Shown here in pieces: positions 504 to 7,032 of a DNA stretch of 64,000 bases. Under the pieces are notes generated by a model. It was not told where the DNA came from and searched no databases. It worked only from the letters and a program-made list of their open reading frames with translations. This DNA is from Pseudoxanthomonas sp. PXM02 (GTDB taxonomy: Bacteria > Pseudomonadota > Gammaproteobacteria > Xanthomonadales > Xanthomonadaceae), in assembly GCF_014851805.1 (NCBI RefSeq), contig NZ_JACVAK010000002.1:1054001-1118000 (forward strand). The letters are read 5' to 3'. The position numbers were made by a program, and so were the translations under genes. How positions within the stretch are numbered: position 1 is the stretch's first letter; each line of letters opens with the position of its first letter.

Positions 504-3500
504 ATGCTGAGCGTCGGCATGGTGGTGTTCGCCGGCCTGCTGTGGCTGGGCGTGCTGTTCGGCTCCGCGCTGTATGCGGAGCGGCATCCGCGCGTACTGG
601 CGGTGCAGTGGCCGTACATCTATGCGCTGTCGCTGGCGGTGTACTGCACGTCGTGGACGTTCTTCGGCACGGTGACGCAGGCGGCGCGCTACGGCTGGCC
701 GCTGCCGCCGACCTTCGTGGGCACCATCCTGCTGTACGTGTTCGGCGCGTTCCTGCTGGTGCGGCTGGTGCGCATGGCGCGCGAGTCGAATGCGACGTCG
801 CTGGCCGACCTGATCGCCACGCGGCTCGGCAAGGACGGCTGGCTGGCCGCGACGGTGACGATGGTCGCCGCGCTGGGCCTGATTCCCTACATCGCGCTGC
901 AGCTGAAAGCCGTGGCGATGAGTTTCGCGCTGCTGACGCGCTCGCCCGGCAACGACGCGCTGCCCGCCTGGCAGGACAGTGCGCTGTACGTGGCGCTGGC
1001 GATGGCGGTGTTCGCCATGCTGTTCGGCACGCGCCGTGCGAGCGCGGTGGAACACAACCGTGGCCTGATCCTGGCGATGGCGTTCGAGTCGCTGTTCAAG
1101 CTGGCGGCGATGCTGGCGCTGGGGCTGTTCGTCTGGTTCGGGCTGCCCGACTTGCCGGTGGTCGCGCCCGTGCAGGCGCCGGCCTCCACCACGTATGGCT
1201 TCCTGCCGCTGGTGGCGCTGGGCGTGCTGGCGATGTTCACCCTGCCGCACCAGGTGCACGTGGGCGTGGTCGAGTGCCGCGATGAGCGCCACGTGCGCAC
1301 CGCGCGCTGGCTGTTTCCGCTGTACATGGTGCTGATGGCCGCGCCCTTGCTGCCGCTGGCGCGTGCCGGCGGTGCGATGTTCGGCGACGCGGTGCCGTCG
1401 GATCTCTACGTGCTGGCGCTGCCGCTGTCGCAGGGTCACCAGGGATTGGCGCTGCTGGCCTTCCTCGGCGGGCTGAGCGCGGCCACCGGCATGGTGGTGG
1501 TCAGCACGCTGACGCTGAGCCTGATGATCGGCAACCACTGGCTGGCGCCCGGCCTGTTGCGCGGTGGCTGGCTGCGCGGCAGCGGCGGCGACCTGCGCGG
1601 GGCCGTGCTGACGCAGCGCCGGGTCGGCATCGTGGCGGTGATGCTGCTGGCATGGGCGTACAGCCGGCTCGTCGCCGGCAACGACGCGCTCGCCGACGTC
1701 GGCGCGGTGTCGTTCTCGGCCTTGGCCACGCTGGCGCCCGCATTGGGCTTCGCCATCTGGCGGCCGCAGACGCCGCCGCGCGCGGTGATCGCCGGCATCG
1801 TCGCCGGCTTCGCGGTCTGGGTCTGGCTGTTGTTGTTGCCGGTGACGATGGATGCACGCGGCGTCGCGCCGGCCTGGTTGCAGGCGGGACCGTTCGGAGT
1901 CGCAGGTCTGTCGCCTGACGGCTTCTTCGGGCTCACCGGCTGGAGTCGCCTGGGTCGTGCGGTGGGCGTCAGCCTGTTCGCCGGCACGGTGGTGACGCTG
2001 CTGGTGATGGGCTGGCGCGGCAGCGCACCGCGGCGTGCCGACAGTCGCGGCTTCGATGCCAAGACGCTGCGCGATGCGGGCCGCCGCTTCCTGCCGCGTG
2101 AGCGGGTGGAGGAACTGTTGGTCGACGCACCGCGCAGTGGACCGGTGCCGGTACTGATCGAAGCGCGGCTCGAACGCGAGCTGGCGGCCGTGCTGGGTTC
2201 GGCGTCCGCGCGCCTGTTGCTGGATGCGGCGCGACGCGAAAGTGGCGATCTGGAAACCGTCGCTGCCATCGTCGGCGAGGTCTCGCAGGATCTGCGCTTC
2301 AACCAGCAGGTGCTGGAAGCGGCACTGCAGAACATGAGCCAGGGTATCAGCGTGATCGACCGCGACCAGCGGCTGGTGGCGTGGAACCGGCGCTATGCGC
2401 AGATGTTCGGTTTCCCGGCCGACGTGTTGCAGGTGGGGCGGCCGATCGCCGACCTGACCCGCTGGGCGTTGCACCGCATGCCGCAACGTGGCGATGACGA
2501 GCGCGCGCTGGAGCGACGGCTCGCTTTCATGCGCGCCGGTACGCCGCACCTGACGGAACGGGTGTTCCCCGATGGCAGCATCGTCGAGATCCGCGGCAAT
2601 CCGATGCCGGGCGGCGGCTTCGTGGCCACGTACACCGACGTGACCGCCTCGCGCCAGGCCGAGCGCGAACTGAAGCAGGCCAACGAGACGCTGGAGCAGC
2701 GCGTGGTCGAACGCACCACGCTGCTGGAAACCGCCAAGCGCGAAGCCGAGCACGCGAACGATGCGAAGAGCCGGTTCCTGACCGCGATCGGCCATGACCT
2801 GCTGCAACCCTTGCACGCGGCGCAACTTTTCACCGATGCGCTGTCGCAGCAGCTGCCGGAGACGCACCAGCGCGAGACCGCGTTGCAGGTGCGGGGCGCG
2901 CTGGACTCCACCACCGACCTGTTGACCGGGCTGCTCGACATGTCGCGCCTGGAGGCGGGCGGGCTGGTGCCGGAGCCGCGCGATCTGCCGTTGATGGAAG
3001 TGCTGGAACCGCTGGCGTCCGAATTCCGCGTGCTGGCGAACGAGCGTGGACTGTCGTTCGCCATGGTGCCGACGCGCGCGTGGGTGCACACCGATCCGCA
3101 GTTGTTGCGACGCATCCTGCAGAACTTCCTCGCCAACGCGGTGCGCTACACGGTGCGGGGGGGCGTGCTGATGGGCGTGCGCCGGATCGGCGATCGCCTG
3201 CGCGTGGAGGTGTGGGATACGGGGCCTGGCATTGCCGACGCGGACCAGCGCCGGATTTTCGAGGAGTTCCGTCGCGGCGACGACGTACCGGGGCAGGGGC
3301 TGGGACTGGGTCTGTCGATCGCCGATCGCATCGCCGTGCTGCTCGCGGCGCCACTGTCGCTGCGCAGCCGGGTGGGGCGCGGTGCGGTGTTCGCGGTCGA
3401 TCTGCCGCGGGTGGCGACGCCTGCGCCGGCCCCGGCGGCATTCGGCAAACCGGGACTCGCGGGTCGGCATGTACTGGCTGTGGACAACGATCCGGTCGCG

Positions 3501-4460: not shown

Positions 4461-5870
4461 TCAGTAACTTACTGCCACGGCATCGCGTGGCACGTGCCTG
4501 CCGTTGATAGGCATGTCGAGCAGTTGCGGCCAGTTGAGCCTGATGACCTCCAGGAAGACCGAGCCGTCGTGTCGCGCCTGCACAGGAACCGCGAGCAACG
4601 CCTCCAGTATCTCCCTGCAGTTGTAAGCCACGTGGGTGTCCATTGCGATGTCGCTTTCCGCGGCGATCCCGGAGAGCCATGCCCCCATCCTGTGTTCCCA
4701 GTTGAAGAGATCGAACCGGTTCATCCCTTCGACACGCCAGAAACCGACACGCTCAGCCCATTCCGCGAAGGCCGCTTCGTCGTGCTCGCGATTCTCGGGC
4801 ATGCCGCACCAGCCCTTGGCCAGATCCCTTGCACGCTGGAGCGGGAAGCAGCGATTCGGGTCCCGGTAGAAGCAGCGCCCCACTTCACCGAGGCTTGATC
4901 TCAGGTGGAGGGCACGGGGTGGGAAATGCCGGAGGTATGCATAGGCGCCGCGCCAGAAGTGGGGGCGGGGGGCGTTGAGGAACATCAGTTCGCGCAGCTG
5001 ACGCGGCAGTGCTTCATGCGTGGGAAGCACGATATGGCGCAGATCGAGTCGCTTTGCCGCCGCGGTGCCGAAGTCCACGTCCACGAGGTGGTGGTTGCCG
5101 TTGGAGTAGGTGAAGTAGTGGAATCGATCTCGAAACTCCCGGCACGCGGACAACATCGTCCGGCTGTCCAGTCCGGCGGTAAGCGAGAACAGCAGGTCGT
5201 CACGCGCGTGCGCGAGACCGCGTGCGGTTGCCCTCAACATGGCGGCTACCTTGTCGGCAGCCTCGTCAACCGAGTAGACGGGAAGTCCTGCCCGTGGCCA
5301 GAAGCGCGTCAGGCCGCCCGTCGCGACATCGAGCAGCTGGTTGGGCGTCAGGATGTGTACGTGCTTCCAGAGCGTCGCATCGCCGGGCAGGCCATACATG
5401 CCACGGCGCGCAAGTTGCGCCTCCACCCCGGGGCGGGGCGTGTCGCCGATGACCTTCGCCACGAGGGATGCGTGGGAAGCTGCGATATCCGGTGCTGTGG
5501 GGGCATAGAACACGGATCGGGTTGCCGCGGCATCGGCGGCGATCAGGATGCTTCCTACTTCAACACGCACGATGACGAAGCGCCCGGACCACCCGTCGGA
5601 TCGAGCCAGCATTGCATCCAGATCGAGATTGGCAGCCTCCTCGACCAGGCTTTGCGGCGCATGGGCGGGTCGTCGGATATCGAAGACATGGCCAAGGATG
5701 CAGACCTGCCCCTTCTCGCCGGCTGCCGCATGTACTTCCAGGCGGGGATCGCGCCAAAGCACCAGTCTTCCGATCTGCATGCGGACCCAGTCGGGCCTCG
5801 GCGGCAGAAGTCCGGGAGGGCCGAGCAGGAAGCCCCGCGCATAGAGGGCATCGTCGTGTCCGGTGTCCAT
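4461..5870 (-). CDS. Asparagine synthetase-like protein with degenerate glutaminase domain
   Basis: 469 residues, shorter than AsnB (about 550). The C-terminal half has an ATP-pyrophosphatase loop SLTAGLDS (229-236) and downstream acidic and aromatic segments (HYFTYSNGNHHLVDVD), as in class B asparagine synthetases, beta-lactam synthetases and lasso-peptide cyclases. The N-terminal ~180 residues have Ntn-like remnants (LSRSDGWSGRFVIV-type pattern, AADAAATRSVFY) but no catalytic Cys at position 2. Glutamine hydrolysis is therefore unlikely; the enzyme would use ammonia or adenylate another carboxylate. It stands alone: no precursor peptide, protease or sugar-biosynthesis gene is adjacent. The DnaA-box duplication lies 200-430 bases upstream of its start. 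The substrate is unknown. Confidence 0.8.
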   Translation of the reverse strand: MDTGHDDALYARGFLLGPPGLLPPRPDWVRMQIGRLVLWRDPRLEVHAAAGEKGQVCILGHVFDIRRPAHAPQSLVEEAANLDLDAMLARSDGWSGRFVIVRVEVGSILIAADAAATRSVFYAPTAPDIAASHASLVAKVIGDTPRPGVEAQLARRGMYGLPGDATLWKHVHILTPNQLLDVATGGLTRFWPRAGLPVYSVDEAADKVAAMLRATARGLAHARDDLLFSLTAGLDSRTMLSACREFRDRFHYFTYSNGNHHLVDVDFGTAAAKRLDLRHIVLPTHEALPRQLRELMFLNAPRPHFWRGAYAYLRHFPPRALHLRSSLGEVGRCFYRDPNRCFPLQRARDLAKGWCGMPENREHDEAAFAEWAERVGFWRVEGMNRFDLFNWEHRMGAWLSGIAAESDIAMDTHVAYNCREILEALLAVPVQARHDGSVFLEVIRLNWPQLLDMPINGRHVPRDAVAVSY

Positions 5871-6068
5871 CGGCTATGGCGTGTTGCACGCGACTGCGTG
5901 CGGCAGGAAGGTCAACGGGACCGGATGAGCTCGTTTTCTAAGGTCCACCGGATGTCGCCTCGATGCGGATCGCGCGTGCTTGGCGTCAGGAGCTGTTGGC
6001 GCATTGTCGCGTGCTTTGAAGGACGTCTGTCAAGGTGTTCTGCTCCGCGTTTCGCGGGCCCCCGCCGA

Positions 6069-6294
6069 CTGTCCACAGGGCGTGTGGATGGTCTGTCGAT
6101 CAACATGTGGATAAGCCGCGGCACGCCTTGCAGCGCAACGCTGTCAAGGTGGGTGGCGAAAAAATGGCCAGTGTGGGATTGGCCCCGGCCACGAGTTGTC
6201 CACACCCGGTGTGGATGGTCTGTCGATCAACATGTGGATAAGCACCGGCATGCCTTACGGCGCAATGCTGTCAAGCGGGGTGGCGAAAAAATGA
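6069..6294. repeat. Tandem duplication carrying a DnaA-box cluster
   Basis: Two ~97-base units, about 6070-6167 and 6198-6294, lie with a period of 127. A stretch of about 35 bases (6082-6116 and 6209-6243) is identical between them. Each unit holds a perfect DnaA box tgtggataa (6106-6114 and 6233-6241, i.e. TTATCCACA on the minus strand), a weaker tgtggatgg (6083-6091 and 6210-6218) and an inverted box (ctgtccaca 6069-6077; ttgtccaca 6196-6204, one mismatch). Both units end in ggcgaaaaaatg. The surrounding 5871-6366 interval has no gene I can support. Replication genes are absent, so this is not obviously oriC. Confidence 0.75.
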
Positions 6295-6366
6295 CCGCGC
6301 CGCGACATGACAGGTCCACGCCAGATTCGACCTCATCACGACATCGCCGACAGAGATCGTTGAATC

Positions 6367-7032
6367 TCAGCCTTCGATCTGCCGCGCCGGATCCGCCAGT
6401 TCCAGTTCGCGCAGCACCACGCCGGCCTGGGTGCGGTTGCGCACGCCCAGGCGGTCGAAGATCGCGGAGAGGTGCGCCTTGACGGTGCGTTCCTGCACGT
6501 CGAGACGATCGGCGATCTGCTTGTTCAACAGGCCTTGCGCCACCAGGGTCAGCACGCGGAACTGCTGCGGCGAAAGGCTCGCCAGGCGACCGGCGAGCTC
6601 GGTGTCGTGTTCGGAGGACTGCGAGCGCGCGACCGCGCCGCGCAGCGAGGCCGGAAGCCACTGCTCGCAGGCCAGCACGCTGCGGATCGCGTCGCGCAGC
6701 TCGTCCAGTCCCGAGCTCTTCGGCAGATAGCCCGCCGCGCCGTGGTCCAGTGCCCGGCGGACCACGCGCGGATCGTCGTTCGCGGACACCACCACCACCG
6801 CGACTGCCGGAAACTGCGCGCGGATCGCCGCCAGGCCGGCGAGCCCGTGGTTGCCGGGCATGTGCAGGTCCAGCAGCACCAGGTCGATGTCGTCGTGCGC
6901 TTCCAGCGTGGCGATAACGCCGTCCAGCGACTCGGCCTCGCGCACCGACAGCTGCGCCACGGCGTCCGCGGCCGCGCCACGCAACGCGGCACGGAACAGC
7001 GGATGGTCGTCGGCAATCAGGAGGTTGGGCAT
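6367..7032 (-). CDS. NarL/FixJ-type LuxR-family response regulator
   Basis: 221 residues from the ATG at 7032. An N-terminal receiver has the acidic pair Asp8-Asp9, phospho-acceptor Asp55 (LLDLHMPG) and the switch Ser/Lys region VVVVSANDD ... YLPKSS. A linker leads to a C-terminal LuxR-type helix-turn-helix (LSPQQFRVLTLVAQGLLNKQIADRLDVQERTVKAHL). It should bind DNA after phosphorylation by a cognate kinase that is not in this interval. It starts 10 bases after the stop of the 3-hydroxybutyrate dehydrogenase gene on the same strand, so both are likely co-transcribed. A link to 3-hydroxybutyrate or PHB control is inferred from position only. Confidence 0.9.
   Translation of the reverse strand: MPNLLIADDHPLFRAALRGAAADAVAQLSVREAESLDGVIATLEAHDDIDLVLLDLHMPGNHGLAGLAAIRAQFPAVAVVVVSANDDPRVVRRALDHGAAGYLPKSSGLDELRDAIRSVLACEQWLPASLRGAVARSQSSEHDTELAGRLASLSPQQFRVLTLVAQGLLNKQIADRLDVQERTVKAHLSAIFDRLGVRNRTQAGVVLRELELADPARQIEG

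Follow-up and report, generated by a model that had tools for sequence, protein, structure and literature searches.

A tandem DnaA-box array in Pseudoxanthomonas suggests a DARS-like element with room for one extra DnaA molecule

The closest described relatives of the locus analyzed here are the DnaA-reactivating sites DARS1 and DARS2 of E. coli, whose three core boxes are equally spaced, with box I opposing boxes II and III (PMC5742627, excerpt). The head-to-head arrangement of I and II is described as characteristic of DARSs and essential (PMC10380432, excerpt), and 2-3 bp gaps between boxes are reported to favor cooperative DnaA binding (excerpts of PMC11317965 and PMC8682772). DARS2 carries Fis sites close to its core and needs IHF as well as Fis (PMC4245941, excerpt). 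In the excerpted text of PMC4245941, conservation of DARS is reported for related gamma-proteobacteria only, and the portion of PMC8682772 containing Fig. 8 gives seven or so E. coli-proximal species with DARS. By title and abstract opening, no description of DARS in the order studied here (Xanthomonadales) was found among the matches listed from open-licence PMC. The third relevant system, datA, is likewise a DnaA-box cluster outside oriC; its essential boxes are all oriented alike, two of them flank an IHF site, and it lies near the origin (PMC5742627, excerpt). In E. coli K-12, the best match to a I-5-II-3-III arrangement upstream of uvrB is TTATCCACT-ATTCC-TGTGGATAA-CCA-TGTGTATTA, and that near mutH is TTATTCACC-TTTTC-TGTGGATAG-AGT-TGTGAAGAA; the paired boxes given for DARS1 and DARS2 in Table 1 of PMC11317965, a paper drawn on in excerpt, are identical to these. 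From this spacing we take six bases between the hexamers of boxes II and III (N=6), corresponding to a 3-bp gap between the boxes, as the DARS core geometry.

The window, a 64,000-nucleotide (64-kb) stretch of Pseudoxanthomonas sp. PXM02 (G000:C5:1054001-1118000; genome of 4.34 Mb in 12 contigs), contains two tandem units, each with DnaA box I, a 5-bp gap, box II head-to-head to box I, a 14-bp gap, box III, and finally a Fis-like 17-bp dyad that starts 62 bp past box II. Unit 1 (6069-6170, plus strand) consists of box I (CTGTCCACA, 6069-6077, plus strand), box II (CCATCCACA, 6083-6091, minus strand), the perfect box III (TTATCCACA, 6106-6114, minus strand) and the dyad TGGCGAAAAAATGGCCA (6154-6170). 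Between boxes II and III, a degenerate box on the minus strand that we call slot X (6094-6102, reading TGTCGATCA on the plus strand) agrees with TGTGGATAA at 7/9 positions and may be a further DnaA contact. Unit 2 (6196-6297, plus strand) repeats this order with box I (TTGTCCACA, 6196-6204, plus strand), box II (CCATCCACA, 6210-6218, minus strand), a putative slot X of the same sequence TGTCGATCA (6221-6229, minus strand), box III (TTATCCACA, 6233-6241, minus strand) and the dyad TGGCGAAAAAATGACCG (6281-6297). The two perfect boxes and the four near-matches (boxes I and II of each unit) of the original prediction are thus all present. That prediction had also recognized a DnaA-control site away from oriC, which is the right kind of element, but it did not recognize that boxes I and II face each other, that a cryptic fourth box and a Fis-like dyad are present, or that the whole resembles DARS, and its three specific options fare worse, as discussed below.

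The two perfect boxes are the sole TTATNCACA matches in the window. Shuffled versions (n=100) contain 0.21 such matches on average and two or more in 2/100 cases, so the box count by itself is only mildly unusual; genome-wide, TTATNCACA occurs 18 times and the reversed control pattern 19 times, a random-like frequency, which the original prediction had named as an outcome that would count against it. The non-random feature is the arrangement and its conservation rather than the number of boxes. The tandem duplication is real, with 100 nt at 87% identity and a period of 127 bp. Identity between the two units is 86% in the window but 65-75% in 13 relatives, and both window units are closer to the relatives' second unit (79-91%) than to their first (62-74%). 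Unit 1 has therefore probably been overwritten by unit 2 in this lineage, which would account for the roughly 35 identical bases per unit noticed earlier. The element itself contains no structured RNA at Rfam gathering scores, one tRNA being found elsewhere in the window. It was rejected as oriC, since dnaA (G000:C6:565530) and its surrounding boxes are on contig C6 and the element is on C5. With two whole-element matches in its own genome, it was also rejected as a high-copy repeat; a single long unit lies at G000:C8:29475-29561.

By DNA similarity, the element matches 28 of 61 genomes including its own (27/37 of the genus and 1/24 of the remainder). Patterns requiring perfect TCCACA/TGTGGA hexamers, for which genome counts are lower bounds, reach further. 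With both gaps left free at 0-30 bases, 93 matches were obtained in 32 of the 38 genomes of the genus, with lengths of 40 (70 matches), 41 (21) and 48 (2) bases. Lengths 40 and 41 represent a 5-bp I-II gap followed by 17 or 18 bases between the II and III hexamers, so that the spacing is strict in 91/93 rows (the I-II gap was confirmed by script in 50/50 of the first 50 rows and read by eye in the others). The perfect-hexamer pattern found no module in 6/38 genomes of the genus. Loss of the boxes from relatives, raised earlier as a point to check, is thus not what is seen. Matches were likewise found in at least 265/395 genomes of the family, 189/299 of the order and 172/369 of the class. Among the 150 matches listed for the order, N=6 (51) and N=17 (97) dominate, with one module each at N=12 and N=16; the II-III gap is accordingly either that of the E. 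coli DARS core (3 bp) or that of the window units (14 bp) in 148/150 listed modules. Among the 150 matches listed for the class, N=6 prevails (142), followed by N=8 (3), N=19 (3), N=12 (1) and N=14 (1). A search of the class restricted to N=16-19 matched 5/369 genomes, which are 5/5 of its members from the order of the window; the long-gap class was found in 0/364 sampled class genomes outside this order. The reversed-pattern control gave zero matches in nearly all genomes and single matches in G092, G004, G018 and G894. Tandem copy number varies from two to six units per stretch in eight stretches of the order (L122-L129).

The window units share with E. coli DARS1 and DARS2 three boxes with I opposing II and III and a 5-bp I-II gap. 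They differ in the II-III gap, which is 3 bp in DARS and 14 bp in the window, placing box III 11 bp further out, and also in copy number, DARS1 being a single module and the window element a tandem one. Because the II-III gap departs from 3 bp, we do not class the window units as DARS. An outward shift of box III by one slot predicts that some likeness to a DnaA box persists in the slot it left. For N=17 units (n=92), six offsets were compared, and the top score was that of the 9-mer located 2 bp after box II and 3 bp before box III, with 5.10/9 to TGTGGATAA compared with 2.16 for shuffled spacers; for N=18 units (n=20), the highest of seven offsets leaves 3 bp on either side, to II and to III (4.65 vs 2.24). 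For N=6 modules (n=49), 33 positions beyond box III were scored, of which those at distances of 2 and 3 bp ranked highest (3.35 and 3.18 vs ~2.15). The significance of these scores is overstated, since units of the same genus are not independent. The best conserved positions of slot X are not the CACA end of a DnaA box, which most units do not carry, and slot X is for this reason a weak site at best.

The dyad (TGGYNAWWWWWTGRCCA, 17 bp) is positioned relative to box II in the same way in either spacing class. Searching to 150 bp beyond box III, the best dyad match starts 62 or 63 bp past box II in 26/26 rows with N=6; it lies at 62 in 46/54 rows with N=17 (two each at 60 and 61, and four scoring below 14/17) and at 63 (19) or 62 (2) in 21/21 rows with N=18, a few loci being counted under two identifiers in these rows. 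The mean dyad score over 137 offsets reaches its maximum at 62 or 63 in 6/6 groups. Twenty modules from 20 genomes outside the order score 12.8/17 at offset 62 (offset mean 7.27, sd 1.11), and even the weakest group, the 39 long units of L122-L136, scores 10.7 (offset mean 6.49, sd 1.00). The offset being equal in both classes, it is box III, with a shift of 11-12 bp, that changes place relative to box II, and the dyad stays fixed. Both window dyads match 5/6 bases of the published Fis consensus, GnnYAnnnnnTRnnC (excerpts of PMC10380432 and PMC8682772), making them candidate Fis sites. At least 5/6 consensus bases are present at the dyad in 16/20 class, 20/23 family and 5/6 order modules with N=6, and in 43/53 family units with N=17 and 20/20 with N=18, compared with 6-12% in control windows; the match is weak in the N=17 units of the order (16/39; outside the family plus two family genomes). 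In the genus (38 genomes), exact copies of the dyad occupy 44 distinct sites (46 rows), 42 of which are at modules: 41 within 110 bp of a listed module and one in G006 at an imperfect module beside priA. The other two sites (G009:C6 and G010:C20) show no module on reading. Within one mismatch, the dyad occurs at just four distinct places in its own genome (both window units, a priA site described below and the upstream region of an mreB-like gene), and it was rejected as a general regulator site on this basis.

The two classes diverge at the IHF consensus, WATCAANNNNTTR (PMC10380432, excerpt). A match of at least 8/9 at +80 to +130 is found in 43/49 modules with N=6 (23/23 family, 5/6 order, 15/20 class), mostly at +96 to +99, and in 0/112 long units (0/53, 0/20 and 0/39), with 16/1,274 in control windows elsewhere in the loci. 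DARS2 requires IHF, whereas the long units are without the downstream IHF consensus. Both window units and 14/53 family units with N=17 do have an 8/9 IHF match overlapping box III, and IHF may contact the window units there. The order of sites also differs from DARS2, given as IBS1-2, FBS2-3 in a review excerpt, in that the Fis-like dyad of canonical N=6 modules precedes the IHF match. The +62 dyad is not clear in E. coli DARS1 (11/17) or DARS2 (8/17), which were therefore rejected as bearers of it.

Canonical N=6 modules frequently lie beside priA, as identified with an E. coli PriA query, in 23/23 family loci (drawn from few genera, where the matches listed start), 5/6 order loci and 6/20 class loci. 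The genome of the window has its own such site, upstream of a priA gene identified by tblastn with E. coli PriA (1e-151); it lies near 124,700 on G000:C6, the contig that also carries dnaA, at a distance of 441 kb from that gene. The site reads, on the minus strand, TTATCCACA-CGTGC-TGTGGATAA-ATC-TGTGCATGG, with a II-III gap of 3 bp, the dyad TGGTCAAAAAAGTGCCA at +62 and AATCATACAGTTA (IHF 8/9) at +98; the strict patterns missed it because its box III is degenerate. Canonical priA modules and window units thus share the I-5-II core and the dyad 62/63 bp from box II, whereas box III is one slot closer to II and the IHF consensus is present at +96 to +99 only in the former. The literature excerpts used here contain no description of these priA modules.

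Over seven genera, the long arrays lie at 0.57-0.93 of the ori-ter distance, i.e., in the terminus half, the single long unit of G603 at 0.22 being an exception. In the order, N=6 modules were placed at 0.14-0.48 (six genomes); in the class, they lie at 0.17 and 0.68 in G634, 0.15 and 0.57 in G649, 0.34 in G747 and 0.73 in G936. These positions come from 16 of 18 genomes (the multi-contig G380 and G249 were dropped) and four more single-contig genomes, with the terminus assumed opposite dnaA and five chromosome lengths rounded. On the same scale, E. coli DARS1 is at 0.66 and DARS2 at 0.41, with DARS and datA coordinates entered by hand and what we take to be the oriC coordinate. The genes flanking long arrays differ between genera while the module stays constant. 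Most arrays in Pseudoxanthomonas are in a response regulator/NUDIX region, and in two other groups they are beside dnaJ/dapB-like and folP-like genes read from their N-termini (neighbor names come from family searches or tblastn, the rest from by-eye reading of N-termini). In the window, Pfam agrees with the response regulator assigned earlier to one flank, but Pfam searches up to E 1 found nothing in the neighbor called asparagine-synthetase-like. A 469-aa ORF between the NUDIX gene and the element (4461-5870, minus strand) has no Pfam match at E 1 and is probably a lineage-specific insertion, because it is missing from the orthologous stretch of G015 (L071).

We propose, with a probability of about 0.5, that the element is a DARS-like DnaA-reactivation array that is Fis-linked and probably IHF-independent; the data suggest that it works like a DARS without being filed as one. 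From the observed geometry, spacing, conservation, consensus matches and chromosomal place, we infer DnaA and Fis binding, nucleotide exchange and an effect on timing that would proceed as follows. In each unit, boxes I and II would be filled by ADP-DnaA in head-to-head contact, from which a head-to-tail chain would run across the weak slot X as far as the strong box III; the resulting complex would be stabilized or switched by a Fis-like protein bound to the dyad, 62 bp away from box II. ADP would be held less tightly where the two molecules meet head-to-head, and DnaA leaving the site in its apo form would pick up ATP, raising the initiation potential. The array would then be the terminus-half partner, probably IHF-independent, of the canonical DARS-type priA site nearer the origin with its Fis-like and IHF sites. 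This DARS-like reading draws on the E. coli DARS polarity of the I-5-II pair and box III, the strict spacing in the genus and the order, the dyad at 62/63 bp in both classes and in the 20 out-of-order modules, the cryptic box in the predicted slot, the canonical modules with their IHF consensus, and the positions of the long arrays set against those of DARS1 and DARS2. Several observations count against it. The II-III gap is 14 bp rather than 3 bp, a difference that might leave the site without function; the +62 dyad is unclear in the E. coli DARSs, and the Fis consensus is weak in the 16/39 group; slot X mostly has no CACA end, and long units are missing the downstream IHF site; six of 38 genomes of the genus have no perfect module; and arrays of up to six units resemble a sink as much as a catalyst.

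A sink is the main rival, and a possible if doubtful one: the arrays may be datA-like in effect, holding DnaA or promoting its ATP hydrolysis and so limiting initiation without recharging. It would suit box-rich units multiplied in tandem, and E. coli DARS1, DARS2 and datA are said in an excerpt of PMC12371093 to make up a large part of chromosomal titration. However, a sink has no need for a head-to-head I/II pair at a fixed 5-bp gap. The datA-like option of the original prediction suffers from the same geometry, in that the essential boxes of datA point in one direction whereas box I of the window units opposes II and III, as judged from the published description rather than base by base (PMC5742627, excerpt). 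Moreover, box clusters near oriC are argued to suit titration (PMC12371093, section 6, excerpt), whereas these arrays are in the terminus half.

Terminus-half placement would also fit some other chromosome function of a DnaA/Fis-type complex, such as organization, segregation or marking of that half, as would the near-confinement of the dyad to modules in the genus; we consider this unlikely, as it leaves the DARS core geometry of the canonical class unexplained. DnaA control of transcription of the neighboring gene appears equally improbable. DnaA does regulate E. coli genes through paired boxes (PMC11317965, excerpt), and the element lies between co-directional genes in some other genera, but neighbors vary by genus while the module does not. 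The original prediction placed the promoter of the adjacent gene here and offered a DnaA-controlled promoter as one option; a search for sigma-70-type promoters found none in 5850-6420, and in G015, which has the orthologous element, the window's next gene is absent and the genes on both sides converge on it. As for a remnant of a mobile or selfish repeat, also among the earlier options, the tandem units, the extra single copy on C8 and a main locus that varies by genus would be in keeping with it, yet few copies per genome and spacing exact to the base pair across the order make it very improbable.

If the DARS-like reading holds, the array would be a variant of a known replication-timing element, whose layout suggests room for one extra DnaA molecule, and the natural one-slot insertion could be used to test directly how ADP is expelled through DnaA contacts of the head-to-head and head-to-tail kinds. 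DnaA recharging sites would become findable by pattern across the class, and a published claim limiting the DARS2 core to E. coli relatives would need revision. Only tentatively, we extend this to the Gammaproteobacteria at large, where two-site DnaA recharging could be widespread on one rigid scaffold that combines a DnaA pair bound head-to-head with two more slots and, at +62, a Fis-like site. On the origin side, the site would often be at priA with IHF; on the terminus side, in the order of the window, it would be an IHF-free tandem array forming a four-slot DnaA lattice. Fork arrival in the terminus half would then double DnaA recharging and help to time the next round.

Some further features of these loci were observed. 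The twenty same-class modules from outside the order (L098-L117) have DARS core spacing, mostly with the Fis-like dyad at +62 and the IHF consensus at ~+97, and modules of this type are not described in the literature excerpts used for comparison. Between box III and the dyad (6115-6153 and 6242-6280), Pseudoxanthomonas units carry a conserved inverted repeat (~CTTGCGGCGCAAG) and CTGTCAAG, a form that is not kept in the other long units of the order. One genome has two two-unit arrays ~2 kb apart (G004:C13:171274-171428 and 173315-173469). In L072 (G005:C2:594000-600000), a single long unit at 3011-3050 follows, by ~100 bp, an ORF with a weak DnaA-family match, possibly hda; the weak DnaA-family matches seen may likewise be hda. 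Finally, a one-mismatch dyad without DnaA boxes lies at 1860-1876 of L097 (G000:C5:81359-81375), upstream of the ORF read by eye as mreB-like.
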